In this document: positions 9,181-29,872 of the stretch, one piece after another | How the letters are laid out: each line of letters opens with the position of its first letter | How positions within the stretch are numbered: the stretch's first letter is position 1 | NCBI RefSeq assembly: GCF_000949635.1 | Contig: NZ_BAFN01000001.1 | Location: 1,612,001 to 1,676,000, forward strand | Source: Candidatus Brocadia sinica JPN1 | Lineage (GTDB): Bacteria; Planctomycetota; Brocadiia; Brocadiales; Brocadiaceae | Direction: 5' to 3' | DNA length: 64,000 nucleotides | The notes under the pieces: model-generated | What the model was told of the DNA's origin: nothing | Databases searched by the model: none | The model's input: only the letters and a program-made list of their open reading frames with translations | Translations under genes and position numbers: made by a program

Positions 9181-9255
9181 GTAGGGGCGAAGCATTTGCT
9201 AATAGTACATTTGAATGCCGTCGCATATCCTGGACAGCAAATGCTTCGCCCCTAC
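9181..9255. repeat. 20-bp perfect inverted repeat GTAGGGGCGAAGCATTTGCT
   Basis: The perfect 20-base arms are at 9181-9200 and 9236-9255 and are separated by 35 bases. The outer GTAGGGGC/GCCCCTAC ends recur in hairpins at 14703-14731 and 17708-17735. It is probably a dispersed extragenic palindrome. Confidence 0.8.
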
Positions 9256-9309
9256 AACTAGGTATACCAGCAATCTTTCTATAACGTTTTCTAAGCAAAG
9301 CGAAGTCAT

Positions 9310-9960
9310 TTACCTTTTTTCCTTCTTATTCAGCCATGCCGTATGGTACTCGCGGATGAAAGCGATCGCTTCTTCCGCATTCGCCGCACAGTGCGGAATG
9401 GTCATATCCTCGGCATTTGCCAAAGGGGTATCGGGAGAAAGCATGGAGCCGCGCGTCCACTCGATCAGCCCTGGCCACATTTTCCCCACAAGGATCAGCG
9501 GCGTGTCCTCAAGGTGCCTCACCTGCAGCAACTGCCAGATCATCATCGTCTCCAGAACCGTGCCGATCCCTCCCGGCGCGACGATGAAAGCGTCAGATGC
9601 GAGCACGAACTGGTGCAGGCGCGTAAAGAATGTCCGATGCTCGAACGCCTGGGTAACAAACGCATTGACTTCCTGTTCAAAGGGTAAATCAACCCGGATT
9701 CCGACGGACTGGGCACGTCCCGTTGCGCTGGCGGCACCTTCGTTGGCAGCCTGCATGAGCCCCGGGCCGCCGCCGGTGATAATGTCGCAGCCCATCTTGG
9801 CCAGTGCGGCGGCGGCTCGCCTGGATGGTTTGAGCCGTGTAAGATTGTTGACGACGTCCCAAAGGCCGAGGATTGAGTTCACGATCACTTGCTTCACTCC
9901 TTCTTCGTCGGCAAGGCTAATTAAATCGGATTTTGTTTCCGTGGATTTCTCTTTGCTCAT
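9310..9960 (-). CDS. LOG-family (TIGR00730-like) nucleotide-binding protein
   Basis: This 216-residue Rossmann-fold protein carries both hallmarks of the LOG/lysine-decarboxylase-like family: GGGPGLMQAAN (about residues 63-73) and PGGIGTVLE. In characterised members these residues form the active site that releases ribose-5-phosphate from nucleoside monophosphates; many bacterial members have other or unknown substrates. The ATG at 9960 has AAAGGAGAGG upstream. Upstream extension of the frame would enter the repeat and the next gene, so I reject it. It lies at the head of the carbohydrate island, downstream of the RpiB-Tal-Pgi fusion and separated from it by an 87-bp repeat. If it releases ribose-5-phosphate it would feed that fusion, but this is speculation. 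Confidence 0.85.
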   Translation of the reverse strand: MSKEKSTETKSDLISLADEEGVKQVIVNSILGLWDVVNNLTRLKPSRRAAAALAKMGCDIITGGGPGLMQAANEGAASATGRAQSVGIRVDLPFEQEVNAFVTQAFEHRTFFTRLHQFVLASDAFIVAPGGIGTVLETMMIWQLLQVRHLEDTPLILVGKMWPGLIEWTRGSMLSPDTPLANAEDMTIPHCAANAEEAIAFIREYHTAWLNKKEKR

Positions 9961-10047
9961 GGTGATTCGCCTCTCCTTTCTGACAATATTTAAACTGCGT
10001 ATTGAATAACGAATATTGAACAAGAAATTTCGAATTATGAGGTTTCT

Positions 10048-10134
10048 TATCCTTTGACATTTACTATTCCTTGTTTGATATTCGATAGTGTGATCCTCAT
10101 CATTCGTAGGGACACGGAGCACCGTGTCCCTACT
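10048..10134 (+). repeat. 87-bp dispersed repeat with GTAGGGACACGG palindrome, copy 1
   Basis: The element begins TATCCTTTGACAT, contains TATTCCTTGTTTGATATTCG and ends in the perfect palindrome GTAGGGACACGG-AGCA-CCGTGTCCCTAC. A second copy lies at 60864-60948. The TTCCTTGT...GATATTCGA core is shared with the 186-bp repeats. Confidence 0.75.
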
Positions 10135-10156
10135 AACTGTCCCCGGTCTCCTCCGG

Positions 10157-13100
10157 CTACGACAGCAGCGCCGCAGCAACGGCTTTTTGCAGAGTAGCCA
10201 GTCCGGCGCCAACGTCTGCGCCGAGATGAGCGCGTAATGCGCGGCGATCGCGCTCCAGCAGGACCTGAAAATCACATCGGGCCTGGGCTGCCTTGACTAC
10301 TCCGAACGTGTATTTCTGCCCCGGCACGGGTAAATCGACGGCGTCATCGCACGTGATCTGCAGGAAAACACCCGTATTCGGCCCGCCCTTGTAAGCCTGT
10401 CCTGTCGAGTGGAGGAAGCGCGGTCCGAATTGGAGACACGTAGCTACCCGCCTGGCGTCACGAACGCCCTGGCGTATCGCCTGCAATGCCCGCTCGTGCG
10501 TTTCGTTCATCTCTATATAGGCGAGAATCGCAAAATAGTCGCCCACGCCGAGTCGGTTCAGATGCTCCCTGAGATACCCCGACAGCGTCCGATGATCTTT
10601 CATCATCGGTATTAATGCAGCCGTATTTTTCTCATCCGTGTATAACTTGATCCCCTCCCCTGTGAAGAAGGGTGTTTCCGGGGGTACCATGCCGTTTCTT
10701 TCGTACTCGGCGGTCAATTTCCGCGTCATGATCTTGCTCACTTCGACATCCGGCTGGTCAAACGGGTTAATACCGAGGATGGAACCGGCCACTGCGGTTG
10801 CTATCTCCCAGCGGAAAAATTCCTCGCCCAGGTCGTAAGGATCGTCTACCTCAATGCGTACGACCGGATGACCGGCTTGCCCCAGTTCGTCAACCAATTG
10901 GTCCTGTGCCGAATCTGGCGCCGATAGCATTCTCAGGTAGACAAATATACGGTCATGGCCATAGACATCAGGTTTGCCGGGCGCTTCGCGGTCAATCGGA
11001 ATCAATCCCCTGCCCTCTTTCCCTGTTGACTCTGCAACCATCTGCTCCAGCCAGGCGCCAAGACCGTAAATGCCCGGAGAAGTAATGATCGTCATCTTGT
11101 CGTGTCCAAATTGGTTCGCAGCTACACCAAGGATGGTACCGAGTATGACACCGGGGTTTTCTTCTGCCGGAACCGAGGGCATGCAGGCACAGACCATTTC
11201 ATCAGTCCTATCCAAAAATTTCACCACATCCATTCCCAGGATGGCTGCGGGGACCAGACCGAAATCGGAGAGCGCCGAGTAGCGCCCACCGATATTCGCC
11301 CAGCCGAAGAAGACATACCGAAAGCCATCGCTTTCTGCAATCTGCTGCATCCTGGAACCGGGATCGGTGATGGCAATGAAATGACAGCCGGCTTCCTTCA
11401 CACCAACGAGTTGTGTCATGCGGTCGAAGAAATACTGTTTTAAAATATTGGGCTCGATGGTCGAGCCAGATTTGCTCGAGACAATGAAGAGTGTGTTTTT
11501 CAGATCGACTTTGCCCTCGAAAGCCTTCACCTGTGCCGGGTCGGTGGAATCGAGAACAGAAAGTTCCGGAAACCCGCTGATCGTACCGAAGGTCAGCTTC
11601 ATCACTTCAGAACAGAGGCTCGATCCGCCCATGCCTAACAAGAGGACATGGGAAAAGCCGGCGCTCCTGGCCACTTCGGTAATTTGGATCAAGCGCTGGA
11701 TGTGAGCCAACTGATCATTGGTAATGCCGAGCCAGCCGAGCCACTGCGATTCATCTTTGCCGGTCCACAACGATGCGTCTCGACCCCAAAGCTTTCTTAC
11801 TTTGCCCTGCGCGTGCCACTCTCTCAAAGAATTTTTCACCACAGAGGCGAATGTCTTGGGTAGTATGTAAGTCAGGCGATTGATCTTTCCTGCCCCTGCT
11901 TCCCTGCTTTGCTTCTCTAAAGCCTTCAGCAGCTTGCCAAAGGCATCCGAAAATAGCTTTACCCCCTCATCAAGCAACTTGTCGGCCACGTCCTTCATGG
12001 AGATTCCGGCTTCGGCGAGCGTGGTCATGGTATCATAGGCTGACTCGATATCTTCCGTGAGGCTTGCGCGTAGCCGCCCGTGGTCACGAAAAGCTCCGAG
12101 GGTCGCAGGAGGAATCGTGTTAACCGTCTCAGGCCCGATCAATTCTTCCACGTAGACGACATCCCGGTAGTTAGGATTCTTCGTACTCGTGCTTGCCCAT
12201 AACAAGCGTTGCGTTTGCGCACCTTGTCCGGCCAGCGCTTGCCAGCGCTGGCCGCTGAATAGTTCCCGGTAACGCTGATAGGTTAGCTTGGCGTTGGCGA
12301 TCGCTGCCTTGCCGGTGAGGCCACGCAGGAAGCGCTCTTCTTTTGCATGTGACGGTGCCTGCAACCTTGCTTCGATAAGCGTATCGATGGCGGTGTCAAT
12401 CCGGCTGATGAAGAAACTGGCAACGCTACCCACGCGCTTCAGATCACCGCCACGGGCGGCAAATTTCTCCAGACCCGCAATATACGCTTCTGCCACCTGT
12501 TCGTAAGCTTCCTGCGAAAAGAGCAGCGTCGCATTGACATTAATGCCCTCGCTGATAAGTTGATGGATGGCAGGAATGCCTTCAGTTGTGGCTGGAATTT
12601 TGATCATCAGATTATCGCGCTCTACTGCTTGCCACAGCCGCCTGGCTTCATCCAGGGTGCCCACCGTGTCGTGCGCAAGGAACGGAGATACCTCCAGGCT
12701 TACATACCCGTCACGACTCAAAGCTTCCTCATACACTGGATGCAGCGCATCTGCAGCGTCCTGAATATCGCGGACTGCGATTTTTTCATAGAGCGTCTTC
12801 GCATCCTGCACCCGTGCTTCCGGCGTGTCGAAAATCTCACGGTAATCGGCAGATCCGGTAACAGCTTTTTCGAAGATTGCCGGATTGGAGGCCACGCCAC
12901 GCAAGCCGTCATCATCGATCATACGGCGCAACTCACCGCTGGTGATCAGGCTGCGGCGTATGTAATCGAGCCATACCGACTGGCCGAAGACCTGCAGGGC
13001 GCGCACCCGGTTTTCCAGTGCCGTCATCTTAGCGAGCCTGCGAAGATGTCGCCCTTCGCCTGTAAAGCTTGCGTTTAAGAACGAACGAATCAGTTCTCGT

Positions 13101-13447
13101 GCAAGCTCAATGCCGACTACACGACCGCCCAGCACCAGCACATTCATGTCATCATGCTCCACACCCTGGTGTGCCGAGTAGGTGTCATGGCATAACCCGG
13201 CGCGGATGCCGTGAATCCTGTTCGCTGCCATCGATGCGCCGACGCCGCTGCCGCAGAGAAGGATACCACGCTCAGCCCTGTATTCACGCAGGGCTGCGCC
13301 GATGGCTTCAGCATAGTCCGGGTAGTCCACGGGATCTTTGCTGTAGGTGCCAACGTCGAGTACCTCGTGTTTCTCCTTGATCAAAAAGGCCTTCACATCT
13401 TCCTTTAGCTCGAATCCGGCATGATCTGAACCTATTGCAATACGCAT
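10157..13447 (-). CDS. tal-pgi: RpiB-transaldolase-phosphoglucose isomerase triple fusion
   Basis: This uninterrupted 1096-residue protein joins three enzymes. Residues 1-145 are a full RpiB domain ([17 protein letters not shown] with Cys65, HDDMNV). Residues about 150-510 are a TalB-like transaldolase of the long bacterial type, with WLDYIRR at its start and the Schiff-base Lys283 in IKIPATTEG. Residues about 525-1096 are a phosphoglucose isomerase with [10 protein letters not shown] (602-611), the SSKSGST sugar-phosphate site and a long C-terminal extension. Tal-Pgi two-enzyme fusions are established; the added RpiB is unusual to me. Together the domains interconvert glucose-6-P, fructose-6-P, erythrose-4-P, sedoheptulose-7-P and ribose/ribulose-5-P. 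The gene is next to a decayed beta-CASP gene and near phosphoketolase. Stand-alone RpiB and PGI genes are also present. Confidence 0.93.
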
Positions 13448-13455
13448 GTCTCACC

Positions 13456-14576
13456 TCAAATTTCAATCATATCGCCCAGATTGGGGCACACTGGCCGCAA
13501 GCCATGCTGTGAACAGATAAGCTCTGAAAATATTTTGCGTACCCGGTTTTCACCATGGGTGATTATCACGCGGGGCCGTGAAGGCACAACGACAGAGAAC
13601 CATTTCAGCAGATCGCCTTGTCCGGCATGGGCGCTGAATCCTCCCATAGTGTGGATCGATGCGCGTACGGCTACTTCTTCGCCAAAGATCGAGACCGATT
13701 CCTTGCCATCCACGAGTTGTCGCCCAAGGGTTCCGGGCGATTGATATCCAACGATCAGGACGGCCGTCTCCGGACGGTGCAGATTGTGCCGCAGATGGTG
13801 CATGATCCGCCCGCCGGTGCACATGCCGCTGCCGGCCATGATCATGCACGGACCTTTCACATCATTGAGCGCCTTGGAATCTTCGGTGGTGGGACAGTAC
13901 TTCGCGTTCTGGAGATTCTCGCGCAGATCGCCGGATTTGGCCATGGTCTGAGCCTCCTGGTCAAACAGTTCGTTATGTTTGCCGTAAATTTTCGTCGCCT
14001 CGATCGCCAGCGGGCTGTCGAGATAAATCGGAAATCGCGGCAGCGTTTTGTTGCGGAATGCCCCTGCCAGGAGATAGAGCAGTAATTGTGTCCGTCCAAC
14101 GGCAAATATGGGAACGAGAATTTTGGCCTTCTCTTCAATCGCTTTTGCGATTATTTTTCGTACCTCGATAGCAGTCTCGTGCAGTGACCGGTGATTCCGA
14201 TCCCCATAGGTGGACTCCATGATAACCGCGTCGGCGCGTTCAAAGGGAACGGGATCGTTCAGCAGGGGTGCCCCGCGTGGCCCCAGGTCACCGGAGAAGA
14301 CCACGATCGTCTTTTTACCGTCTTCATCCACGGTCAGCTCGACACTGGCAGAACCAATCACGTGCCCGGCATCGACTAGACGCGCCTGAATACCCGGAGC
14401 GACTTGAATCGGCTGATTATAGGCAATCGCCTTGATCAAAGGCTTCAGACGAAGCACATCTTCCTCCGTCTACAGCGGCTCGAGCGGTTCTTGACCGGAG
14501 CGCACTCTTTTCCGGTTCTCACGTGATAGGCAGAACCGGTTACGTCACCCATTGCGCCATGGAAATAGATTTTCAT
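13456..14576 (-). pseudogene. metallo-beta-lactamase/beta-CASP RNA-exonuclease-like gene, internally deleted
   Basis: The start MKIYFHGAMGDVTGSAYHV (ATG at 14576, with GAGG upstream) is the normal N-terminus of this family. After about 22 codons the sequence jumps, out of frame, to a segment matching roughly residue 125 of intact relatives. There the conserved PLYTEED reads PL-stop-TEED because the Tyr codon is TAG at 14470-14472. The remaining frame to 13456 keeps the FSGDLG, ESTYGDR, GSGMCTGGR and FSAHAGQGDL motifs. About 100 residues, including the metal-binding HxHxDH motif, are missing, so catalytic activity is not expected. The deletion, frameshift and stop together argue for a dead gene. 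The downstream 333-codon frame might still be translated from a GTG or ATG near 14457. Confidence 0.88.
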
Positions 14577-14889: not shown

Positions 14890-17256
14890 TTAATACGGCC
14901 AGGTCCAGTTGGCGATCTCCGGCCGGTCCGTGCCGTGCTCGTGCGCGTATCGCAGGTTATCAATAATGGCATTCTTCATTTGCTCCTTCAAATGTGCGGC
15001 CTTCGTGCGCAACTTCGGCACCCGATCAATTATGTCGATGACCAGATGGAAACGCGAGGTTTCATTCAGCATCGCCAGTTCGAGCGGAGTATTGATGTTG
15101 CCCTTTTCCTTGTAACCACGCACGTGCAGGTTATCATGTCCCTTGAAACGGTACGAGAGCTTATGGATGAGCCACGGATAGCCGTGGAAGTTAAAAATGA
15201 TGGGCTTGTCTGTGGTGAACAGGCTGTCGAATTCTCGATCCGTTGATCCGTGTGGGTGCTCAGATGCCGGCTGCAGCTTGAATAGATCCACCACATTGAC
15301 GAAGCGCAGCTTCAGATCAGGCGCCTTCTCGCGCAAGATAGCGGCTGCGGCTAACGCCTCCATAGTGGCAACGTCGCCGCAGGAAGCTAAAATTACATCC
15401 GGCTCTTCGCCCGCATCCGTGCTTGCCCTCGCCCAAATGCCGAGGCCCTTGGCACAGTGAACGATTGCCTCATCTATGGTAGTAAACTGCAGATGCTTCT
15501 GCTTATCGGCAACGATGACGTTTATATAGTTGGTGCTGCGCAGGCAGTGATCGGCGACGGCTAAGAGCGTATTGGCGTCGGGCGGCAGATAGATACGCGT
15601 GACCGATGGGCTCTTGTTGGTAACAAGGTCAATGAATCCAGGGTCCTGATGAGAAAAACCGTTGTGGTCCTGACGCCAGACCGTGGACGACAGCAAAATA
15701 TTCTCTGAAGCGACCGAGGCCCGCCACGGCACGTGGTTTTTGCAGATGTCCAGCCATTTGGCGTGCTGGTTGAACATGGAATCGATGACGTGGGCAAAGG
15801 CTTCATAGGTATGAAAAAACCCGTGGCGCCCTGTAAGCAGATATCCTTCCAGCCAGCCAATGAGTGTATGCTCGGAAAGCATCTCCATAACGCGGCCATC
15901 ACGAGCGAGCTCGCCGCCGTCAGCATCCTCCGGCAACATATCTGCCATCCAGGTCTTCTTGCTCACCTCGTAGATAGCCTGGAGCCGGTTAGATGCGGTC
16001 TCGTCCGGGCCAAATACACGGAAGCTCGTCATGTTGTTTTTCATCACGTCGCGCAGATACTCGCCGAGGGGTTTGGTGTTCTCGTATTGCACTGTACCGC
16101 GGGAAGACACTTCTACAGCGTATTTGCGAAAATCGGGAAGCTTGAGTTCCTTGCGCAGGAGCCCGCCGTTGGCATGAGGGTTAGCGCTCATGCGCTGATT
16201 CCCCCTCGGCGCCAGAGCCTTGAGTTCTGGCACGAGCTTGCCGCCCGCATCGAACAGTTCCTCGGGCTTGTAGCTGCGCATCCAGTCTTCCAGAAGCTTT
16301 GCATTCGCCGGATTGTCGCGCACGTCGGCAAAGGGCACCTGATGCGAACGCCAGAAGCCCTCCACCTTATGTCCTTTGATCTCCTTCGGTCCGGTCCAGC
16401 CCTTGGGGGAACGCAACACGATCATGGGCCAGCGAGGACGGAAGGGGTTATTCGATTCCCTTGCCTTTTTCTGCTGGGCACGGATCTCGCCGATGGTCTC
16501 TTCCAGCGTGGCGGCCATCTTCTTATGCATCTCCACAGGGTCGCTTCCTTCCACAAAATAGGGCTTATAGCCATAGCCGACAAACAACGCCTCCAGCTCC
16601 TGGTGGCTGATTCGTGCAAGGATTGTTGGGTTGGCGATCTTGTATCCATTGAGGTTCAGGATCGGCAGCACAGCGCCGTCGCGCACCGGATTGATGAACT
16701 TGTTGGAATGCCACGCTGTAGCAAGAGGTCCGGTTTCCGCCTCGCCGTCACCCACCACGCAGGCGACGATGAGATCCGGGTTGTCGAGCGCCATGCCGTA
16801 GGCATGCGAGAGACTGTAGCCAAGTTCTCCGCCCTCGTGGATGGAGCCAGGAGTTTCCGGAGTGACGTGGCTTCCAATATGGCCGGGGAAGGAGAACTGC
16901 TTAAAGAACTTCTGCATCCCTTCCGCATCTTCGCTCTTGTCCGGATATATCTCTGAGTAAGTGCCTTCAAGATATGCCGGCCCCAGCACTCCGGGCGCAC
17001 CGTGGCCAGGCCCGGCCACGAAAATCACGTTGAGGTCATGCTTGACGATCATCCGGTTAAGATGTACCCAAACAAAAGATAGCGCAGGACTCGCGCCCCA
17101 GTGACCGAGCAGCCGGTGCTTCACATGCTCTGGCTTCAAGGGCTCCCTGAGCAGCGGGTTGTCCTTGAGATAGATCATGCCTACGGAAAGGTAATTACAC
17201 GCCCGCCAATAGGCGTTCATCAGTTCCAGCTCTTTATTCGTTAATGGATTTTCCAT
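14890..17256 (-). CDS. xfp: phosphoketolase (xylulose-5-P/fructose-6-P)
   Basis: This 788-residue thiamine-diphosphate enzyme has the family's usual length. It splits xylulose-5-P to glyceraldehyde-3-P plus acetyl-phosphate, and fructose-6-P to erythrose-4-P plus acetyl-phosphate. Visible motifs include GHWGASP (51-57), GPGHGAPG (82-89), the thiamine-diphosphate motif GDGEAETG (169-176) and the family-specific SNPHANGG-like and SVASEN regions. The ATG at 17256 has an AGGAGGG site upstream. It shares strand and surroundings with the RpiB-Tal-Pgi fusion, aldolase, PGI, glycogen phosphorylase and the acetate kinase-PduL fusion, which supplies the step that uses acetyl-phosphate. Whether it prefers X5P, F6P or S7P cannot be read from the sequence. 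Confidence 0.97.
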
Positions 17257-18035: not shown

Positions 18036-18986
18036 TTAACAGCACTCGGCGGCTTTTCCTGCACAACCCAAAACAGTGAGTTTATGCTTTACCATGCCCG
18101 CAATAGCCTCCCTGGCAGGACCAAGATACTTGCGAGGGTCGAACTCACCGGGTTTTTCGGCAAAAACCTTCCGTATGCTGGCAGTCATCGCCATACGCAG
18201 GTCTGTATCGATATTGACCTTACAGACCGCCATTTTTGCCACCCTGGAGATAGCGCTCTCAGGCACACCCATCGCATCAGGCATCTTGCCACCGTACTTG
18301 TTGATCAATTCCTTGAACTCAGGCAGAACACTGCTTGCCCCGTGCATTACCAGCGGGAAACCGGGAAGCTTTTTGCCGACAGCCTCAATTACGTCAAAAG
18401 CGAGTTTCGGTTCGGTTTTGAACTTGTACGCGCCGTGACTTGTGCCGCAGGCAATGGCAAGCGAATCGCAACCGGTCTTTTCAACAAATTCGACAACCTG
18501 GTTCGGGTCGGTCAGATGCTTTAATACATCATCAGCGCTTATGCCGACAACATGCTCCTCGATACCGCCGAGCTGGCCTAATTCGGCCTCAACGACCACT
18601 CCTCGGGCATGGGCATATTCAACGACTTTTTTGGTAAGCCTGACATTCTCTGCAAAAGGAAAATGGGATGCGTCGATCATGACGGAAGTATAACCATCAT
18701 CAACACACTGCTTGCACAGTTCAAAGGTGTCGCCGTGGTCAAGGTGCATGCAGACAGGAATATCAGGATTTTCCTTCACAGCGATATCAATAATAGCCCT
18801 CAGATAACTTATGCTTGCGTATTCACGGGCCCCCTTTGAAATCTGAAGAATAACAGGCGCCTTTTCTTCCCTAACAGCCGCTATGATGCCCTGAATAATC
18901 TCCATGTTATTGACATTGAACGCGCCAATGGCGTAGCCATTCTTGTAAGCCATCTGAAACATTTTCTTTGATGAAACAAGCGCCAT
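18036..18986 (-). CDS. fba: class II fructose-bisphosphate aldolase
   Basis: This 316-residue zinc-dependent aldolase condenses dihydroxyacetone phosphate with glyceraldehyde-3-P; class II enzymes often also accept erythrose-4-P to give sedoheptulose-1,7-bisphosphate. Visible are the zinc-ligand region CMHLDHGDTFE, the YTSVMIDASHFPFAENV segment, HGASS with a zinc-ligand His, and KVNIDTDLR for phosphate binding. The protein ends in a Cys pair. The ATG at 18986 follows AAAGGAG. It lies downstream of the 186-bp repeat copy 2. In this island it could reform hexose bisphosphate from the triose phosphate left by phosphoketolase. Confidence 0.95.
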   Translation of the reverse strand: MALVSSKKMFQMAYKNGYAIGAFNVNNMEIIQGIIAAVREEKAPVILQISKGAREYASISYLRAIIDIAVKENPDIPVCMHLDHGDTFELCKQCVDDGYTSVMIDASHFPFAENVRLTKKVVEYAHARGVVVEAELGQLGGIEEHVVGISADDVLKHLTDPNQVVEFVEKTGCDSLAIACGTSHGAYKFKTEPKLAFDVIEAVGKKLPGFPLVMHGASSVLPEFKELINKYGGKMPDAMGVPESAISRVAKMAVCKVNIDTDLRMAMTASIRKVFAEKPGEFDPRKYLGPAREAIAGMVKHKLTVLGCAGKAAECC

Positions 18987-19224: not shown

Positions 19225-20868
19225 TCAAGACTTGTTCCTGCGATAGCGACGTATCAGGTTGTTTGTCGAACTGTCATGGGCAAGCTCAGGCTCACTTTTA
19301 CTCTCAAGTTCAGGGATGATGCGCTGCGCCAGCACCTTGCCCAGTTCGACACCCCACTGGTCGAACGAGTCAATCTGCCAGATAACACCTTGGGTGAAGA
19401 CACAATGCTCATAGAGGGCAACGAGTTTGCCGAGTATTTCTGGCGTGAGCCGATCCGCAAAGATTATGTTCGACGGCCGGTTACCTTCAAAAACCCGATG
19501 CGGCACAAGCCAGTTTGGTGTTCCTTCGGCCTTTACCTGTTCCGCCGTCTTGCCGAAGGCCAGCGCCTCGGCCTGAGCAAAAACATTCGCTATCAGCATA
19601 TCATGGTGCCGGCCAAGAGGGTTGAGCGATGTACCGAATGCTATGAAATCACAGGGAATGAATCGTGTACCCTGATGAATCAGCTGATAGAAAGAGTGCT
19701 GGCCGTTGGTGCCCGGTTCGCCCCAGTAGACCGGGCTGGTCTGATAGTCAACCTGAATTCCATCAAGGGTAATATATTTGCCATTACTCTCCATGGTCAA
19801 CTGCTGAAGATATGCCGGAAAACGTTTGAGGTACTGTTCGTAGGGTAAAACTGCAATAGTATGGGCATCAAAAAAACCGGTATACCAGATGGTCAGCAAA
19901 GCCATAAGAACAGGCAGGTTTCGTTCAAACGGAGTAATACGAAAATGCTCATCCATCTGATGGAATCCACTCAGCATTGCGCTGAAGTTGTCCGGACCGA
20001 TGGCAAGCATCGTCGAAAGGCCGATCGCAGAATCCATAGAATACCGCCCGCCGACCCAATCCCAGAATCCGAACATATTAGCGGTATCAATGCCAAACTT
20101 TGCCACTTCAGTCTCGTTCGTCGAAACAGCGACAAAGTGCTTTGCTATGGACTTTTCATCTCCACTAAGCCCTTTCAGCAACCACGCACGGGCGGTGCGG
20201 GCATTCGTCATTGTCTCTAATGTGGTGAATGTTTTTGAAGAGACGATAAAAAGAGTCTGTGCAGGGTCGAGGTCTTGAACTGCTTCTGCGAAATCAGTGC
20301 CGTCGATGTTGGAAACGAACCGGAACGTCATGCGCCGGTCGCTGTAATGCTTAAGCGCCTCGTAAGCCATTACCGGCCCAAGGTCAGAGCCCCCGATGCC
20401 GATATTGATGATATTGCGTATGGATTTCCCCGTATGGCCTTTCCACGCACCTTGCCGGACGCGGTTGGAAAAGTCAGCCATCTTGTCGAGGACAGCATGA
20501 ACTTGTGGTACCACATTTTTGCCATCCACGAGAATAGACGTCCCTCGTAGGGCCCGCAGTGCCACATGCAAAACAGCCCGGTTCTCTGTGATGTTTATCT
20601 TCTCACCACGAAACATGGCGTCAATTTGCTCGCGCAGGCCAGATTCCCCAGCCAATTGAACAAGGAGTTTGAGCGTTTCATCGCTAATGCGATTTTTCGA
20701 GTAATCCAGGTAGATGCCTGCTGCCTCGGCGGTCATACGCTCGCCGCGTTTTGGGTCATCGGCGAAAAGCGTGCGAAGATGCAGCGATTGAACTTTTTTG
20801 TAGTGGGTGTTAAGTGCGTTCCATGCCGCACGTTTGCTGAGCGGCTTAATGTGTGTTGTCATATTCAT
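19225..20868 (-). CDS. pgi: glucose-6-phosphate isomerase (stand-alone)
   Basis: This 547-residue protein has the classical long PGI architecture with two SIS folds. Motifs seen are [20 protein letters not shown] for phosphate binding, [11 protein letters not shown] (PGI signature region), the ESNGK signature 2 area and the C-terminal [11 protein letters not shown]. It interconverts glucose-6-P and fructose-6-P. ATG codons at 20868 and 20862 are both possible behind a weak AGGGA site. It is a second, differently built PGI beside the domain in the fusion at 10157-13447. It stands between glycogen phosphorylase upstream and aldolase downstream, which suits entry of glucose units from glycogen. 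Confidence 0.97.
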
Positions 20869-20950: not shown

Positions 20951-23464
20951 TTACTGTACCGGGCATGGCTTTGCTTTCCAGATATCGGCAGCATACTCTG
21001 CAATCGTGCGGTCACTTGAAAATTTTCCTGAACCAGCCACATTCAGAATGGCCTTGCGTGCCCATCCATGCTGATCTGCATACAAATCGCATAGCCGCTG
21101 ATCTGCCTCAAGATAGGACCTGAGGTCCGCCAAATGCATATAATAGTCACCTCGGTTCAAAAGGGTATCGCGCAGCGGCGCAAAAACACCCGGCTCATAT
21201 CGGCTGAAATGGTCAGAAAAAATCAAGTCCAGTGCCTCGCGTGTCTCTGCGTCGTTATCATAGTGCCAGTGCGGATTGTACCAGCTGCGGCTGTCAGCTA
21301 CCTGCTGAGCAGTCAGTCCAAACAGGAAAAAGTTTTCCTCGCCCGCTTCCTCTGCCATTTCGATAGTCGCGCCGTCGCGAGTACCGATTGTCAGCGCACC
21401 GTTCATCATAAACTTCATGTTGCTCGTGCCGCTGGCTTCATAGCCTGCTGTAGAAATTTGGTTAGAAACGTCACTGGCAGGTATGAGTCGCTCCGCGAGT
21501 GAAACGCAATAATCCGGCAGGAACAGGACTTTGAGCCGGCCGCGCATCGCAGGGTCGCCATCAATGGTGCTGGCAAGGTTGTTAATGAATTTGATAATGA
21601 CCTTTGCCAGGCGGTAGGCAGGCGCCGCTTTGCCAGCGAAGAAAAACGTTCGCGGTTCCATGTCCACACCAGGATTTGTGCGCAGCCTGTTGTAAAGGAC
21701 CACGATGCGCAGCGCATTGAGCAATTGCCGTTTGTATTCGTGGATACGCTTGACCTGGCAATCAAAGATGCTGTCCGGATCCACCGTCTGACCGCTGGTC
21801 GATTTGAGCCAGTCGGCAAACTGCGCCTTGGCTGCACGTTTGGCCTTGAGGAATGTTTCACGAAAACCTTTGTCGTCGGCAAGCGGTTTGAGCTTGCCCA
21901 CTTGAGCAAAATCCGTGGTCCAGCCGTCACCGATAGACTTGGTAATCGTATTTGCCAGCATCGGATTAGCCAGCAGTAGCCACCGACGCGGCGTAACGCC
22001 GTTGGTTTTGTTATTGAAACGCTCCGGAAACATTTCGGCAAAATCCTTAACCGTCATCGTGCGCAAAAGCCCGGAGTGAATCGCGGCCACGCCATTGGTG
22101 CTATGTGAGCCGACTATGGCCAGATTGGCCATACGAATTTTGCGTACGGTACCTTCCTCGACAATGCTCATACGGGCAACACGCCCCTCATCGCCTGCAA
22201 ATTGAGCGCGAACATCATCAAGCAGGCGGCGATTTATTTCAAGAATGATTTCCAACAGGCGCGGAAGCATCTTTTCAAACCACACGAGCGGCCATTTTTC
22301 AAGGGCTTCCGGCAACAGCGTGTGGTTCGTATACGCCAAAGTCTTTTGTGTGATATTCCACGCCTGGTCCCAACCGAGATGCGCTTCATCAAGCAGAATG
22401 CGCATCAGCTCAGGTACCGCCATCGACGGATGCGTATCGTTAAGCTGTATGGCAACCTTCTCAGGAAGTGTATTCCAATCGGTATTGCTGCTCTGGAATC
22501 GGCGCACAAGATCGGCCAGCGAGCAGGCAACAAGAAAATACTCCTGTATAAAGCGCAAACCCTGTCCCATACTGGTGGTGTCGTCGGGATACAGTACCCG
22601 TGTGAGCGATTCGGCCGTCAGCGTCTCAGCAAAAGCGCCGACAAAGTCGCCGCTGCTAAATCGCTGAAAATTAAAATAATCCGGGGCGGCAGCAACCCAG
22701 AGCCGAAGCGTATTGATCGTCTTGCCGCCATGACCAACTACGGGGCGGTCAAACGGGATACCGAGCAGACTGGCAGGCTGACCGGCAATCACACGCAGCG
22801 AACCGCCGTGTATCTCGAATGAGCAGTTCAGCCTGACCTCAACCATATCCTGCAGCCGGGCGACTTCCCATGGGTCGGGCCGGCGAAGCCAGTTGTCCGG
22901 CTGTTCGTACTGCCAGCCATCCCTGATGGACTGCTTGAAGATGCCATACTCATAACGAAGGCCGTAGCCCATGGCCGGCAGCTGCATCGTGGCCATCGAA
23001 TCCAGAAAGCACGCCGCCAGGCGTCCAAGACCTCCGTTCCCCAGGCCTGCATCAGGTTCCTGTTCGAGTAAACCGGGTAAATCAATATGCTTCTGCCCGG
23101 CCGCTTGTTTGGCAAGATCATCGAGCAGAAGATTCGTAATATTGTTGGCCAGAGAACGGCCAATGAGAAACTCCATGGAAAGATAATAAATGCGCTTCGG
23201 ATTCGCACGATGATACGTATCCTCTGTGCGTATCCATCGCTGCGAAAGGACATCCCGCACCGAACGGGCAAAGGCCTCAAATTGCTCCCGTGCGCCGGCC
23301 ACTTTCAAATCGGTAACGTTGTCAAAAATGAGGTGCCGTTCGTATAATCCGTTATCCGTCCCGGCAAACTGCACCGGCCCACACCCATATTGTTTGAGGA
23401 GTTCCGATTCAGTGACCTTGCCTGCTGACACCCTTGTGGATGCTGCCATACTTTTTGTACTCAT
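20951..23464 (-). CDS. glgP: glycogen/alpha-glucan phosphorylase
   Basis: The 837-residue GT35 enzyme releases glucose-1-phosphate from the non-reducing ends of glycogen. The N-terminal half holds YYLSMEFLIGRSL and NGGLGRLAACFLDS; the C-terminal half has the pyridoxal-phosphate site EASGTSNMKFMMNG, whose Lys binds the cofactor, followed by GTRDGATIEM. Length is typical of bacterial GlgP/MalP. The ATG at 23464 follows AAAGGATATTGAG. It is followed 82 bases downstream by pgi. No phosphoglucomutase is in the window, so the step from glucose-1-P to glucose-6-P must come from elsewhere. Confidence 0.97.
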   Translation of the reverse strand: MSTKSMAASTRVSAGKVTESELLKQYGCGPVQFAGTDNGLYERHLIFDNVTDLKVAGAREQFEAFARSVRDVLSQRWIRTEDTYHRANPKRIYYLSMEFLIGRSLANNITNLLLDDLAKQAAGQKHIDLPGLLEQEPDAGLGNGGLGRLAACFLDSMATMQLPAMGYGLRYEYGIFKQSIRDGWQYEQPDNWLRRPDPWEVARLQDMVEVRLNCSFEIHGGSLRVIAGQPASLLGIPFDRPVVGHGGKTINTLRLWVAAAPDYFNFQRFSSGDFVGAFAETLTAESLTRVLYPDDTTSMGQGLRFIQEYFLVACSLADLVRRFQSSNTDWNTLPEKVAIQLNDTHPSMAVPELMRILLDEAHLGWDQAWNITQKTLAYTNHTLLPEALEKWPLVWFEKMLPRLLEIILEINRRLLDDVRAQFAGDEGRVARMSIVEEGTVRKIRMANLAIVGSHSTNGVAAIHSGLLRTMTVKDFAEMFPERFNNKTNGVTPRRWLLLANPMLANTITKSIGDGWTTDFAQVGKLKPLADDKGFRETFLKAKRAAKAQFADWLKSTSGQTVDPDSIFDCQVKRIHEYKRQLLNALRIVVLYNRLRTNPGVDMEPRTFFFAGKAAPAYRLAKVIIKFINNLASTIDGDPAMRGRLKVLFLPDYCVSLAERLIPASDVSNQISTAGYEASGTSNMKFMMNGALTIGTRDGATIEMAEEAGEENFFLFGLTAQQVADSRSWYNPHWHYDNDAETREALDLIFSDHFSRYEPGVFAPLRDTLLNRGDYYMHLADLRSYLEADQRLCDLYADQHGWARKAILNVAGSGKFSSDRTIAEYAADIWKAKPCPVQ

Positions 23465-23793: not shown

Positions 23794-24393
23794 TCATGTA
23801 CCGATGTGATGATCATCATTCCACAGCCGTATCACCGGATGTGAAAGATCATGTTTATAACCCAGTGCACTCAGGCTCGCGGTGCTTAGCATGAAATACG
23901 AACAGGAAACCGATGGCTCAAGTCCGAGCCATCGGACCGTAAGGACTCTGATAAAATGTCCGCTCGAAAAAATCAGCACATTCCCATTAACCTTGCGCAC
24001 CCTGCCGATTACTCGGTCAGCCCGCGCTACGGCCTGAGCCGGTAATTCTCCTCCGGGACAGCCATCACGGAAGAGCTGCCAATCCGGGTGTTGGGCATGT
24101 ATCTCGCTGGAGAGGTGGCCTTCATATTCGCCATAGTTCCATTCAACAAGGTCATGATCGACCTCCGCTACAGCCCCAAAACCGGCCAGTTCACAAGTCC
24201 GCACAGCTCGCTGCAGCGGACTGGTAAATACCTTGGCAAAAGCTATACCTTTCAGGCGTTCCCTAAGCCGGCGCGCATTCCGCTCGCCGCGCTCGGTCAG
24301 CGGCAAATCAGTAAGACCGGTATACTTCCCCGTCAGACTCCAGGCCGTTTCACCATGTCTCGCAAGATAAATGACCGGAAGCTCTTCGCTCAT
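23794..24393 (-). CDS. histidine phosphatase, resembling Shb17 sedoheptulose-1,7-bisphosphatase
   Basis: This 199-residue member of the histidine phosphatase (phosphoglycerate-mutase-like) superfamily has the catalytic RHGETAW near residue 13 and the second His in SGHFIRVL. Beyond the general motifs it shares several features with what I remember of yeast Shb17: YTGLTDLPLT, EWNYGEYEG, RDGCPGGE and an ALGY..H..P...LW ending. Shb17 dephosphorylates sedoheptulose-1,7- and fructose-1,6-bisphosphate. Such an activity would fit an island with aldolase, transaldolase and phosphoketolase. The general call is firm; the substrate is inferred. Alternatives are CobC/GpmB-like phosphatases. The ATG at 24393 follows a GAAGGAG site. 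It is divergent from glgX. Confidence 0.85.
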   Translation of the reverse strand: MSEELPVIYLARHGETAWSLTGKYTGLTDLPLTERGERNARRLRERLKGIAFAKVFTSPLQRAVRTCELAGFGAVAEVDHDLVEWNYGEYEGHLSSEIHAQHPDWQLFRDGCPGGELPAQAVARADRVIGRVRKVNGNVLIFSSGHFIRVLTVRWLGLEPSVSCSYFMLSTASLSALGYKHDLSHPVIRLWNDDHHIGT

Positions 24394-24896: not shown

Positions 24897-26972
24897 ATGT
24901 CTCACATTAACACAAAGGGTCGAAGCTCACCACTCGGCGCAACCGTTTACGAAGACGGCGTTAACTTCAGCGTTTTTTCCCGTAATGCTACAGGTGTAGA
25001 ACTGTTGTTCTTTGACCACGAGGACAACGACAAGCCGGTACGCAGTATTCAAATTGATCCCTGGGCCGGCCGAACCTATCATTACTGGCATGTCTTTGTG
25101 TCAGGCGTACAAGCCGGACAACTTTACGGTTATCGGGTACGCGGACCGCATGAACCTGCCAGGGGGATGAGATTCGATCCATCCAAAGTCCTTCTCGATC
25201 CCTATGGCCGCGGTGTTGCTGTTCCCAGGAATTACAGTCGAGAAGCCGCCAGCAAAGCGGGTGACAACGCCGCTGTGGCGATGAAAAGCGTAGTGGTCGA
25301 TACCCACAAGTATAATTGGGAAGGCGACACGTCGATTAAACGGCCGTCATCACGCATGATCATTTACGAGATGCATGTGCGGGGTTTTACCCGCCATCCC
25401 AGTTCAGGGGTTTCCGAAAAGGCACGTGGCACTTACGCCGGCCTGATTGAGAAGATTCCGTATCTTCAGGAACTCGGTGTTACTGCGGTCGAATTACTCC
25501 CTGTTTTCCAGTTCGATGCACAGGATTGCCCGCCGGGACTTGTCAACTACTGGGGCTATGCGCCGGTATCTTTCTTTTCCCCGCATCAGGCGTACAGCTC
25601 GCGGCAGGATCCGCTTGGTCCGACAGATGAATTCCGTGATATGGTCAAGGCACTGCATCGGGCAGACATTGAGGTTATTCTCGATGTCGTGTTCAATCAT
25701 ACCGCCGAAGGCGGCCAGTCCGGGCCAACGCTGAGTTTCCGCGGATTGGACAACAGCATGTACTACATCCTCGAACAGGATTGTTCCCGTTACGCCAACT
25801 ACAGCGGAACGGGAAACACCCTCAACGCTAATCATCCTGTCGTGCGCCGCATGATTGTGGATAGTCTCCGCTACTGGGTCGAAGAGATGCATGTAGACGG
25901 TTTCCGCTTTGACCTTGCATCGATCCTCGCACGCGACGTGTCAGGGCACCTGATGCCAAACCCGCCGGTGCTCTGGGATATTGAGTCGGATCCGGTTCTT
26001 GCAGGCACAAAGATCATCGCCGAGGCATGGGATGCTGCCGGCCTGTATCAGGTGGGCAGTTTCGTTGGAGACAGTTGGAAAGAGTGGAATGGACGATTTC
26101 GCGATGATGCTCGCAGCTTCTTCCGCGGCCAGGATGGTTCAGTAACACGCTTTGCCGACAGGCTCATGGGTAGTCCCCAGATATATGGTCATGAGAATCG
26201 CGAGGTAGAACAAAGTGTCAACTTTGTGACCTGTCACGATGGTTTTACGCTCAACGACCTTGTCTCCTATAACAGCAAACACAATGAAGCTAACAGGGAA
26301 GGCAACCGTGACGGTTCGGATGACAATCTGAGCTGGAACTGCGGCGTAGAGGGACCGACGGATGATCCGGCGGTGGAAAAACTGCGAAACCGCCAGGTAA
26401 AAAACTTTTTGACTGTCACGATGCTGTCGCTCGGTGTTCCCATGATTCTGATGGGCGATGAAGTGCGGCGTACCCAGCATGGCAATAATAACGCCTATTG
26501 CTTAGACAACGAGATCAGTTGGTTCGACTGGACGCTGGTCACAAAACATGCCGATCTGCACCGGTTTGTGAAATTACTTATTGCGCGGAGGCGACTGAGG
26601 GAGGTGGAGCACGAATATCAGCGCGTAACCCTGAACCAGTTGCTCCGTGATGCCAATAAAGCATGGCATGGTACAAAACTTGGTCAGCCGGACTGGGGGG
26701 ATCATTCGCATAGCATAGCATTCACTGCGGAGATAAAAACACAAAGGCTGCTCTTCCACATGATCATGAACGCATACCGGGAGCCGCTCGACTTCGAATT
26801 GCCGCCGGTAGAGAACAGGGGGAAAAATTCCTGGCGTAGGTGGATCGACACTGCCCTCGATTCCCCAAATGACATCATCGGATGGCAAACATCGCCTCCG
26901 GTTCAAAATCTTTCCTATCAGGCCGCGCCACACTCTGTGGTCGTACTGTGGAGAAATACATCCAACGATTAA
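24897..26972 (+). CDS. glgX: glycogen debranching enzyme GlgX (isoamylase type)
   Basis: The 691-residue GH13 enzyme hydrolyses alpha-1,6 branches of phosphorylase-trimmed glycogen. A CBM48-type N-terminal domain (about 10-100) precedes the barrel. Barrel motifs are DVVFNHTAEG, the nucleophile Asp in GFRFDLA, the acid/base Glu in IIAEAWD and the third carboxylate in VTCHDGF. Length matches GlgX/TreX. The ATG at 24897 has GGAGAAAGGA upstream. It is the only plus-strand gene in the island, divergent from the Shb17-like phosphatase and convergent with the acetate kinase-PduL fusion. Its stop codon lies within a short palindromic repeat. Confidence 0.96.
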   Translation: MSHINTKGRSSPLGATVYEDGVNFSVFSRNATGVELLFFDHEDNDKPVRSIQIDPWAGRTYHYWHVFVSGVQAGQLYGYRVRGPHEPARGMRFDPSKVLLDPYGRGVAVPRNYSREAASKAGDNAAVAMKSVVVDTHKYNWEGDTSIKRPSSRMIIYEMHVRGFTRHPSSGVSEKARGTYAGLIEKIPYLQELGVTAVELLPVFQFDAQDCPPGLVNYWGYAPVSFFSPHQAYSSRQDPLGPTDEFRDMVKALHRADIEVILDVVFNHTAEGGQSGPTLSFRGLDNSMYYILEQDCSRYANYSGTGNTLNANHPVVRRMIVDSLRYWVEEMHVDGFRFDLASILARDVSGHLMPNPPVLWDIESDPVLAGTKIIAEAWDAAGLYQVGSFVGDSWKEWNGRFRDDARSFFRGQDGSVTRFADRLMGSPQIYGHENREVEQSVNFVTCHDGFTLNDLVSYNSKHNEANREGNRDGSDDNLSWNCGVEGPTDDPAVEKLRNRQVKNFLTVTMLSLGVPMILMGDEVRRTQHGNNNAYCLDNEISWFDWTLVTKHADLHRFVKLLIARRRLREVEHEYQRVTLNQLLRDANKAWHGTKLGQPDWGDHSHSIAFTAEIKTQRLLFHMIMNAYREPLDFELPPVENRGKNSWRRWIDTALDSPNDIIGWQTSPPVQNLSYQAAPHSVVVLWRNTSND

Positions 26973-27023: not shown

Positions 27024-29321
27024 TCATTGGCTCTGAATTTCCGCTATGAATCCCCGCGCGCCGGTCTGGATGTTTGAAGCATTTCCTTCATCGGTGTCAA
27101 TGTGCATTGCCAGCCGGTAATCCGGCGAAACTCGCACCAGTACATCGCCGAACTCCAACTCACGGTCGCCGGCCACGCGCACGCTCACGACCGACTTGTC
27201 GCGTACACCGTAGCGGAGCGCATCGTCGGGTGTCATGTGGATGTGTCGCCAGGCGTAGATGACTCCCCGCTCCAGTTTCACACTGCCGGCCGTGCCTTCG
27301 AGCGTGCAGCCAGGCGTATCCTTGATGTCGCCGCTTTCACGAATTGGTGGATGAACGCCGAGCTTGAACTGTTCGGTCATCGCAATTTCGACCTGCGTGA
27401 ATTTGCGGACCGGACCGAGCACGCGGACCCGTTCGATGCGGCCCTTCGGTCCGACGAGCGTGACTTGCTCTTTGCAGGCAAACTGACCGGGCTGCGAAAG
27501 GTCGGTGTGCGGTGTGAGCTGATGTCCCTTGCCGAACAGTGCCTCGGCATGTTCCTGTGTGAGATGAATGTGATGGGCCGACACCTCGATCATGATCGGT
27601 TCCTGCCGCCTTGTTTTGAGCACACCCGTGATGTATGACCGGCTCAACGCCCGCAACGCCTCGCGCGCCATCATCCGTTCTTCATCAGTCGGCACAACCA
27701 GCACCGTAACCTTCGAGTCCTGTGTCGAGACGCGGCATACTTCATCGAACCCGCGCGCGTCACGGTTGAGTTGTTCATCGAGACGGATGCCCATGCAATC
27801 CAACCCCTGTAAGGCAAGCGCGCGCACCATGGCACTGCCTTGTCCGACACCTCCGGTAAAGACCACAGCATCCAGTCCACCCATGGCGGCGACGTACGCG
27901 CCGATGTATTTGCGGACACGATAGCAATAGGTCTTCAGCGCCACCAACGCGCGAGATTCTCCAGCCTCGGCGGCCTTGAGAATTTCGCGCATGTCGCTGG
28001 AAATACCAGACAGTCCAAGCAGGCCGCTCTTCTTGTTGATCAGTTCATCAACCTGCGGGACGGTAAGGCCCGCTGTTCGTTCGAGGAAGGTGATCACGCC
28101 CGCATCCACATCTCCGCAGCGCGTCCCCATAATCAGCCCCTCAACCGGCGTGAACCCCATCGTAGTGTCTACTGAACGTCCATGGTCCACGGCACACAAC
28201 GACGAACCATTGCCAAGATGACAGCTTACAATTTCGAGTTCGTTTGGTCTCCGCCCGAGGAACTGCGCCGCACGGAGGCAGACGTACGAGTGCGACATGC
28301 CGTGAAAACCGTACCGGCGTACGCCCTGCTTCTCGTAGAACTCGTATGGCAGCCCGTACAGATACGCATACGACGGCAACGTGTGATGAAAGGCGGTGTC
28401 GAACACCGCCACGTGCGGCACGGCCGGTAACAGCCGGCGCATCTCTCGGATGCCGGCGATATTGACAGGATTGTGCAGCGGTGCAAGCGGACTCAGTGCA
28501 TCGAGCTGCGAGAGCACGTCGTCCGTGATCAGCGTTGCTTCAGTGAATCGCTCACCCCCGTGCACCACACGATGCGCGACGACGCTGACTTCGGGTTCTC
28601 CCCGCAACGCTTCCACCATCGCCGCCATCGCCTCGGCAAATCCGGACTTGGGCAACTCGCGCGTGACTTCACCCTTTAACCCGCGATGAACATGGCGCGT
28701 GCCGTCCAGCCCGATCCGCTCGACCTGGCCACGCACTTGCCGAGCGTCATCTTCGGTGTCGTAGTAAGTGTATTTCAGTGAAGATGAACCGCAGTTGACC
28801 ACGAGAATATGCTCCGGCCGTTCGCTCCTGAGCTTAAAACCATAGGGATCATCGCTTTGCCGAAGCGCCGCGGCCGCTTTCTCCGGGTCGGCCACCAGCA
28901 TCTTGAACCGTTCGGAAATTGTCCGTGAAATGTGTTGCACTACCTGCGGTTCGGCAACGATGATCGATTGAAACACCGAGACCGGTATGAGCAACACATC
29001 GCACCGCGTTGCGGCAATGAGTTCGGTCAGCGTCTTCTCGCCCGTCATCAACGCCAGTTCGCCGAATGTGCTGCCCGCTTCGAGCCGCCCCAATTCTAAC
29101 CGTATGCCACCGCCGGCAATTACCGACGCCGTTACCGTACCGGCCAGGATCACGCCGAAGTGCGTAGCTTCCGCGCCGTAATGCACGATGGCCTCGTTCT
29201 GTTCGAACGACACGACACGCGAGCTGCTCACGAGTTTGTCCAACAGTTCCTCTGTAAATCCGGCAAACAATGGGATGCCGGATTTGAGATGCCGGATTAT
29301 TTCGGATTTGGCTCTGCTCAT
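27024..29321 (-). CDS. ackA: fusion of cyclic-nucleotide-binding-like domain, acetate kinase and PduL phosphotransacylase
   Basis: This 765-residue protein has three parts. Residues about 10-130 form a cNMP-binding fold with FGELAL (86-91); the Arg that normally binds the cyclic phosphate is replaced (GEKTLTE). Residues about 171-560 are a full acetate kinase: NCGSSSLKY, RVVHGG, HLGNGSS, GTRCGDVD and FTGGVGQGS. Residues 577-765 are PduL, with metal-binding HHIHL and RHIHM segments. Acetate kinase makes ATP from acetyl-phosphate; PduL exchanges phosphate and CoA, so one polypeptide can direct acetyl-phosphate from Xfp to ATP plus acetate or to acetyl-CoA. The ATG at 29321 lacks a clear Shine-Dalgarno sequence; a GTG at 29432 would add 37 residues of unlikely composition. 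I know of no described protein with all three parts. Confidence 0.92.
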   Translation of the reverse strand: MSRAKSEIIRHLKSGIPLFAGFTEELLDKLVSSSRVVSFEQNEAIVHYGAEATHFGVILAGTVTASVIAGGGIRLELGRLEAGSTFGELALMTGEKTLTELIAATRCDVLLIPVSVFQSIIVAEPQVVQHISRTISERFKMLVADPEKAAAALRQSDDPYGFKLRSERPEHILVVNCGSSSLKYTYYDTEDDARQVRGQVERIGLDGTRHVHRGLKGEVTRELPKSGFAEAMAAMVEALRGEPEVSVVAHRVVHGGERFTEATLITDDVLSQLDALSPLAPLHNPVNIAGIREMRRLLPAVPHVAVFDTAFHHTLPSYAYLYGLPYEFYEKQGVRRYGFHGMSHSYVCLRAAQFLGRRPNELEIVSCHLGNGSSLCAVDHGRSVDTTMGFTPVEGLIMGTRCGDVDAGVITFLERTAGLTVPQVDELINKKSGLLGLSGISSDMREILKAAEAGESRALVALKTYCYRVRKYIGAYVAAMGGLDAVVFTGGVGQGSAMVRALALQGLDCMGIRLDEQLNRDARGFDEVCRVSTQDSKVTVLVVPTDEERMMAREALRALSRSYITGVLKTRRQEPIMIEVSAHHIHLTQEHAEALFGKGHQLTPHTDLSQPGQFACKEQVTLVGPKGRIERVRVLGPVRKFTQVEIAMTEQFKLGVHPPIRESGDIKDTPGCTLEGTAGSVKLERGVIYAWRHIHMTPDDALRYGVRDKSVVSVRVAGDRELEFGDVLVRVSPDYRLAMHIDTDEGNASNIQTGARGFIAEIQSQ

Positions 29322-29872
29322 GACTATGTTTGTCTGTTTGTTTCGGTAACCGCAGTAATCTTGCCGGGTGCGAGCACTTACCCGGACGTGGTGGTTGCAA
29401 GCAAATGCATCATGCGAGGGATCAGGGATCACTCATGCCCGGATGATAGGAAATTGCTTTTCACTTTGAGGCGATAGTAAAACAAAATGAAGAAGTTTGC
29501 AAGTTTTTTTAATTTCTTCAGCAAGAATTGAAAAAATGGCAAGACCATTCCTGTATCCTGGATAGGGAAATAAGGAAGGGTTTCATTTGGCGCAATACTA
29601 CAGGACCATCATAACCTGGCCAATCATCAGCGAAGAATTCCTGGTGCGGCTACGCCGCAACCAAAGCTTTAAAACCGTCCCCCAATGGTGTATACTTGAT
29701 TTTTATAAAGTGAAATTCTCATAAGATAAGCCGGAGGCAGAGAGAGGTGGTGAAAATAATTTGTAAAAAGAACGTACAACAAGCGGGCAGTAGCGATAAA
29801 AAGGTTTTTTTAGGGAGGTTCATTGTTTTTGTTATGCTATGAACATATGAATAAAGGAGAAAGGTGGTTTAC
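29322..29872. other. 551-base divergent intergenic region
   Basis: It lies between the acetate kinase fusion (minus) and the SpoIIAA-like gene (plus). I see no RNA gene or clear promoter. A small palindrome GGTGCGGCTACGCCGCAACC is near 29643. A TTG-started frame of about 45 codons from 29588 is unrecognised and probably not coding. By eye the region is AT-rich and marks the end of the GC-richer island. Confidence 0.5.

Follow-up and report, generated by a model that had tools for sequence, protein, structure and literature searches.

A CNB-acetate kinase-PduL fusion protein predicted to act on acetyl-phosphate in an anammox planctomycete

The window analysed here is a 64,000-nucleotide stretch of DNA from an anammox planctomycete of the Ca. 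Brocadia lineage (genome 4.08 Mb), and it encodes a single polypeptide in which a CNB-like domain is followed by an acetate kinase (AckA) and a PduL phosphotransacylase. The nearest named relatives of the host are Ca. Brocadia and Jettenia. Taken together, our results make it probable that this protein combines two acetyl-phosphate enzymes with an N-terminal regulatory domain, that it is fed from glycogen by the phosphoketolase (Xfp) of the surrounding gene island, and that the CNB domain is a non-canonical switch. The fusion protein and its parts are placed as follows.

27024 to 29321 (including the stop), minus strand: CNB-AckA-PduL fusion protein, 765 aa; a single open frame without internal stop, with orthologues.
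28959 to 29213, minus strand: CNB-like domain, residues 37-121; PF00027 match (E 3.6e-14) and structure model of residues 1-165.
29031 to 29033, minus strand: codon of Thr97, the usual site of the cyclic-phosphate-binding Arg in CNB domains, located by homologue alignment.
27663 to 28808, minus strand: acetate kinase domain, residues 172-553; Acetate_kinase match (E 1.3e-142), TIGR00016 above cut-off, catalytic residues conserved.
27069 to 27593, minus strand: PduL/PTAC phosphotransacylase domain, residues 577-751; PTAC match (E 2.2e-78), NF011652 above cut-off, six zinc ligands.

The intact 765-residue frame and its three Pfam matches (cNMP_binding, Acetate_kinase and PTAC), all far above the curated cut-offs, bear out the claim of an earlier sequence-only reading that these domains lie in one polypeptide. 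A frameshift or assembly chimera as the source of the joining is ruled out by full-length, single-frame orthologues in independent and unrelated assemblies, some of them single-contig (G002 with 87% identity and G160 with 67%). The best choice of start is the ATG of the 765-residue frame, close to which the orthologues also begin, and the frame stays open upstream as far as a GTG at 29432. Measured against three anammox orthologues, dN/dS was 0.07-0.19 in each part of the fusion, indicating purifying selection on all three. An AF2 model of the whole 765 residues, built with 9 sequences, reached a mean pLDDT of 50, too low for interpretation.

The acetate kinase part scored 475.5 bits against PF00871 (cut-off 22) and 469.8 bits against TIGR00016 (cut-off 293.4), a model that covers acetate/propionate kinases. 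When aligned to 1g99, the acetate kinase of Methanosarcina thermophila, the fusion has N176, R251, D308, H340, R401 and E547 at the positions of N7, R91, D148, H180, R241 and E384, the catalytic residues of the acetate kinase family. This set of Asn, Arg, Asp, His, Arg and Glu is invariant in the close three-domain homologues. The PduL part scored 262.5 bits against PF06130 (cut-off 25) and 264.6 bits against NF011652 (cut-off 209), and alignment to the PduL structure 5cuo recovers all six dizinc ligands (H584, H586, E645, H693, H695 and H740) as well as the phosphate-contacting R639, with residue roles as described in PMC4784909. In belonging to the PF06130 family with all zinc ligands this part resembles the PduL of bacterial microcompartments, but unlike that protein it is joined to a kinase, and no microcompartment genes were found among the window ORFs scanned.

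The proposal that both acetyl-phosphate enzymes reside in one protein holds at the level of sequence, since the active-site residues are complete in the AckA and PduL parts, and there is good support for reading the fusion as a single predicted protein that covers both uses of acetyl-phosphate. The AckA part would convert acetyl-phosphate to acetate and ATP, while the PduL part would convert it to acetyl-CoA; flux through the fusion could also run in reverse, from acetate and ATP to acetyl-CoA. A genome-wide search identified the fusion as the only acetate kinase and the only PF06130 (PTAC) protein of the host, and no classical Pta (PF01515) was found in that genome, with control genomes matching as expected. 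As searches of the host genome gave no second AckA or PduL and no Pta, the fusion would set the two activities at 1:1, side by side. Separate pta-ackA or pduL-ackA operons provide the same pair of reactions, but as separate polypeptides, with no CNB domain and usually with the unrelated Pta fold (PF01515).

The CNB part matched PF00027 at 52.9 bits (cut-off 27.5). The CNB fold is secure, since an AF2 model of residues 1-165 (mean pLDDT 77) matched known structures of such domains (Z up to 18.6, rmsd about 2 A). The CNB part is less conserved than the AckA part (dN/dS 0.16-0.19 vs 0.07-0.08), as would suit a ligand-free structural or oligomerisation element in a fusion that only couples two enzymes. 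Several CNB-fold domains, those of the FNR/DNR class, function without a cyclic nucleotide, and two-domain AckA-PduL proteins do without a CNB domain altogether. However, the ribose-contacting Glu of the phosphate-binding cassette (E88) is kept in 26/26 CNB domains examined and the FxExxLMTG segment is strongly conserved in the homologues, which suggests a retained pocket function and leaves a ligand-free element a somewhat unlikely explanation. We favor instead a CNB domain that would act as an allosteric or assembly switch, whose ligand would differ from the classical cyclic nucleotides and might be a nucleoside.

The sequence-only reading included neither the phosphoketolase, the likely source of acetyl-phosphate, nor the glycogen/pentose-phosphate island that surrounds the fusion. 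The island and its genes are listed below.

2001 to 30000, no strand assigned: high-GC island, 52.8% GC vs 41.6% in 30001-64000.
9310 to 10275, minus strand: LOG/TIGR00730-family protein, possible nucleoside-5'-monophosphate phosphoribohydrolase; true start uncertain; adjoins the fusion in related islands.
10157 to 13447, minus strand: RpiB-transaldolase-phosphoglucose isomerase fusion, 1096 aa.
14890 to 17256, minus strand: phosphoketolase (Xfp).
18036 to 18986, minus strand: class II fructose-bisphosphate aldolase.
19225 to 20868, minus strand: glucose-6-phosphate isomerase.
20951 to 23464, minus strand: glycogen phosphorylase.
23794 to 24393, minus strand: histidine-phosphatase-superfamily protein.
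24897 to 26972, plus strand: glycogen debranching enzyme GlgX, convergent with the fusion.

The fusion gene itself has 58.9% GC and lies 10 kb from the phosphoketolase gene, and the same island genes surround it in G009, G018, G004 and G026. High GC together with patchy presence suggests that the island was probably acquired. A region of ~40 kb with aldolase, Pgi and acetate kinase has been described in Jettenia ecosi and is absent from J. caeni, an absence that the passage on this region reads as loss in J. caeni (PMC6828613); the same passage mentions neither the fusion nor phosphoketolase.

Several other features of the island were observed. The combination of RpiB, transaldolase and Pgi in 1096 aa is a second multi-enzyme fusion, in which the transaldolase/Pgi pair is known to NCBIfam (NF007080) and the RpiB part is extra. 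The LOG-family protein gave a weak PpnN-like match, is kept in the islands of those anammox carriers that were examined, and may free ribose-5-phosphate from nucleotides; a 264-aa ORF at 9215-10009 on the plus strand was rejected as antisense of its gene. A Beta-CASP/RMMBL protein of 333 aa (13456-14457, minus strand) aligns only from inside longer models, from about position 126 of NF045584 or 301 of TIGR03675, so its N-terminal metallo-beta-lactamase part is seemingly missing. In the islands of G018 (L058-L059) and G026 (L064-L065), the phosphoketolase has 72% identity to that of the window, with neighbours mostly at 80-95%, and lies at a different place; this lower identity and other position indicate that the gene was probably swapped.

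Within the proposed pathway, phosphoketolase would split fructose-6-phosphate or xylulose-5-phosphate, ultimately derived from glycogen, to yield acetyl-phosphate. The phylum sample comprised 392 planctomycete genomes, 24 of them from the anammox family of the host. In this family AckA and Xfp occurred together in 7 genomes and were both absent from 17 (Fisher p 3e-6, uncorrected for shared ancestry). One of the seven, G010, belongs to the same genus and is without the fusion, pairing Xfp with separate, adjacent pta and ackA genes, which indicates that the fusion stands in for Pta plus AckA. Among planctomycetes outside this family a stand-alone AckA is often found 24-70 bases away from Xfp. 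In the single-contig planctomycete G160 the fusion and Xfp share a strand and are separated by 574 bases, within which a LOG-family match falls. Outside the anammox family the association of fusion and Xfp is weaker (2/5, p 0.07) and not significant. No phosphoketolase was found in six MAGs (Verrucomicrobia, delta and Flavobacteriales) that carry close orthologues, and in some of them pyruvate kinase, lactate/malate dehydrogenase or serine dehydratase is encoded close to the fusion; thus the source of acetyl-phosphate is not always Xfp.

Such pyruvate-producing neighbours of the non-anammox orthologues are consistent with a main role in acetate uptake (acetate and ATP to acetyl-CoA) or in pyruvate-to-acetate fermentation, with the phosphoketolase link being incidental. 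Both reactions are reversible, and organic acids are used by anammox bacteria (PMC3477478). Yet the strict co-presence and co-absence of AckA and Xfp among the anammox genomes argues against this role, which we consider unlikely. An AMP-forming acetyl-CoA synthetase, described for an anammox bacterium in PMC3477478, would provide another route for acetate uptake. As to the phosphoketolase-fed pathway that we favor, no description of a stored-glycogen/phosphoketolase route in anammox bacteria was found in the open literature searched.

The architecture search over genomes showed that the three-domain protein is not unique to the host; it recurs at low frequency, in genomes that are assigned to four phyla. 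It is present in about 10 of the 392 planctomycete genomes, in 3 of 289 genomes from the phylum of a verrucomicrobial MAG (one with an internal stop), in 6 of 247, plus one truncated, from the phylum of a 'delta proteobacterium' MAG, and in 1 of 247 from the phylum of a Flavobacteriales MAG; the three non-planctomycete samples were each centred on a known carrier, so these counts are slightly inflated, and some carrier MAG contigs are short, making misbinning possible. In a tree of the AckA domain one label change suffices for the 25 three-domain rows (support 90/91; 93% of bootstrap trees), which have two-domain AckA-PduL proteins as their closest neighbours. The simplest history compatible with these sequences would have AckA and PduL joined first, the CNB domain added once, and horizontal spread thereafter.

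The two-domain fusions, found for example on Polaromonas plasmid pPNAP02 (WP_011798166.1) and in Paracoccus sp. Arc7-R13 (WP_127899590.1), likewise carry acetate kinase and then PduL in one chain, but are without the CNB domain and have ~45% identity to the three-domain protein over the shared part. In public genomes they are annotated only as 'acetate/propionate family kinase'. The suggestion that the architecture was undescribed therefore survives for the full protein, since no paper on a CNB-AckA-PduL protein was found in the open literature searched, and needs qualification for its enzymatic half, which was already in public genomes. The novelty of the architecture lies in how known domains are combined. 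L088 and L089, candidates for further AckA-PduL fusions, each have a stop inside the match and are placed elsewhere in the AckA tree, and were rejected as adjacent genes rather than true fusions. In Ca. Brocadia carolinensis (L005 566-1056) the orthologue has a frameshift in its CNB part and is otherwise intact; the gene may be broken, or the assembly may be in error at this place.

In the Jettenia ecosi orthologue (L012 6001-7695) the reading frame stops once AckA is complete, with GlgX immediately next to it, and neither PF06130 nor PF01515 was found elsewhere in that genome. Judged from its gene content, this is a natural deletion of PduL activity. The earlier idea that a single signal on the fusion lets the cell choose between ATP and acetyl-CoA is a hypothesis, to be set beside this anammox relative that keeps CNB-AckA without PduL.

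The canonical feature of a cAMP or cGMP sensor, the phosphate-binding Arg of the cassette, is absent from the CNB domain of the fusion. Position 97 is T, S, V, M, L or A in 26/26 CNB domains and Arg in 0/26, and position 90 is Ala or Ser in nearly all homologues. Since none of the homologues retains the pocket Arg, it is doubtful that the domain responds to cAMP or to any other cyclic nucleotide; the sensor-like N-terminal domain first proposed is thus upheld in its fold and put in question as a cyclic-nucleotide sensor. A similar situation exists in the regulatory subunits of trypanosome PKA, where the Arg site is V, T, A or N and nucleoside analogues, rather than cAMP, give a response, although the ligand was not predictable from sequence alone (PMC6440977). 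Both proteins combine a CNB fold with a short neutral residue in place of the phosphate-binding Arg, but trypanosome PKA additionally has Glu in place of a neighbouring Ala, a change not shared by the fusion and nearly all its homologues (Ala/Ser at position 90), and the effector domain is unrelated to the enzymes of the fusion.

A more specific proposal is that the CNB domain, lacking cyclic-nucleotide specificity, senses another metabolite such as a nucleoside or nucleotide-breakdown product and gates the only acetyl-phosphate enzyme, between ATP and acetyl-CoA, in the phosphoketolase/glycogen pathway. Such a signal would fit the putative nucleotide phosphoribohydrolase of the LOG family beside the fusion in related islands, and we regard this proposal as tentative and, in its full form, improbable. 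A conventional cAMP (or cGMP) sensor setting acetate kinase/PTAC activity would be compatible with the CNB fold and E88 of all homologues, with a class III cyclase domain encoded in the host genome, and with mammalian PKA RI-alpha, which keeps cAMP activation at 5-fold lower sensitivity when the equivalent Arg is mutated (PMC6440977), but it is unlikely given the loss, in all the homologues examined, of an Arg that most other CNB proteins looked at in the same MAGs keep.

Acetyl-phosphate carries energy and also serves as a chemical signal. By bringing both of its main enzymatic exits together with a sensor-type domain, the fusion offers a compact test of how carbon is split between ATP and biosynthesis, and its CNB pocket without the arginine presents a ready case for a new ligand class. 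In some anammox bacteria, a stored-glycogen/phosphoketolase route could aid survival once ammonium or nitrite is exhausted.
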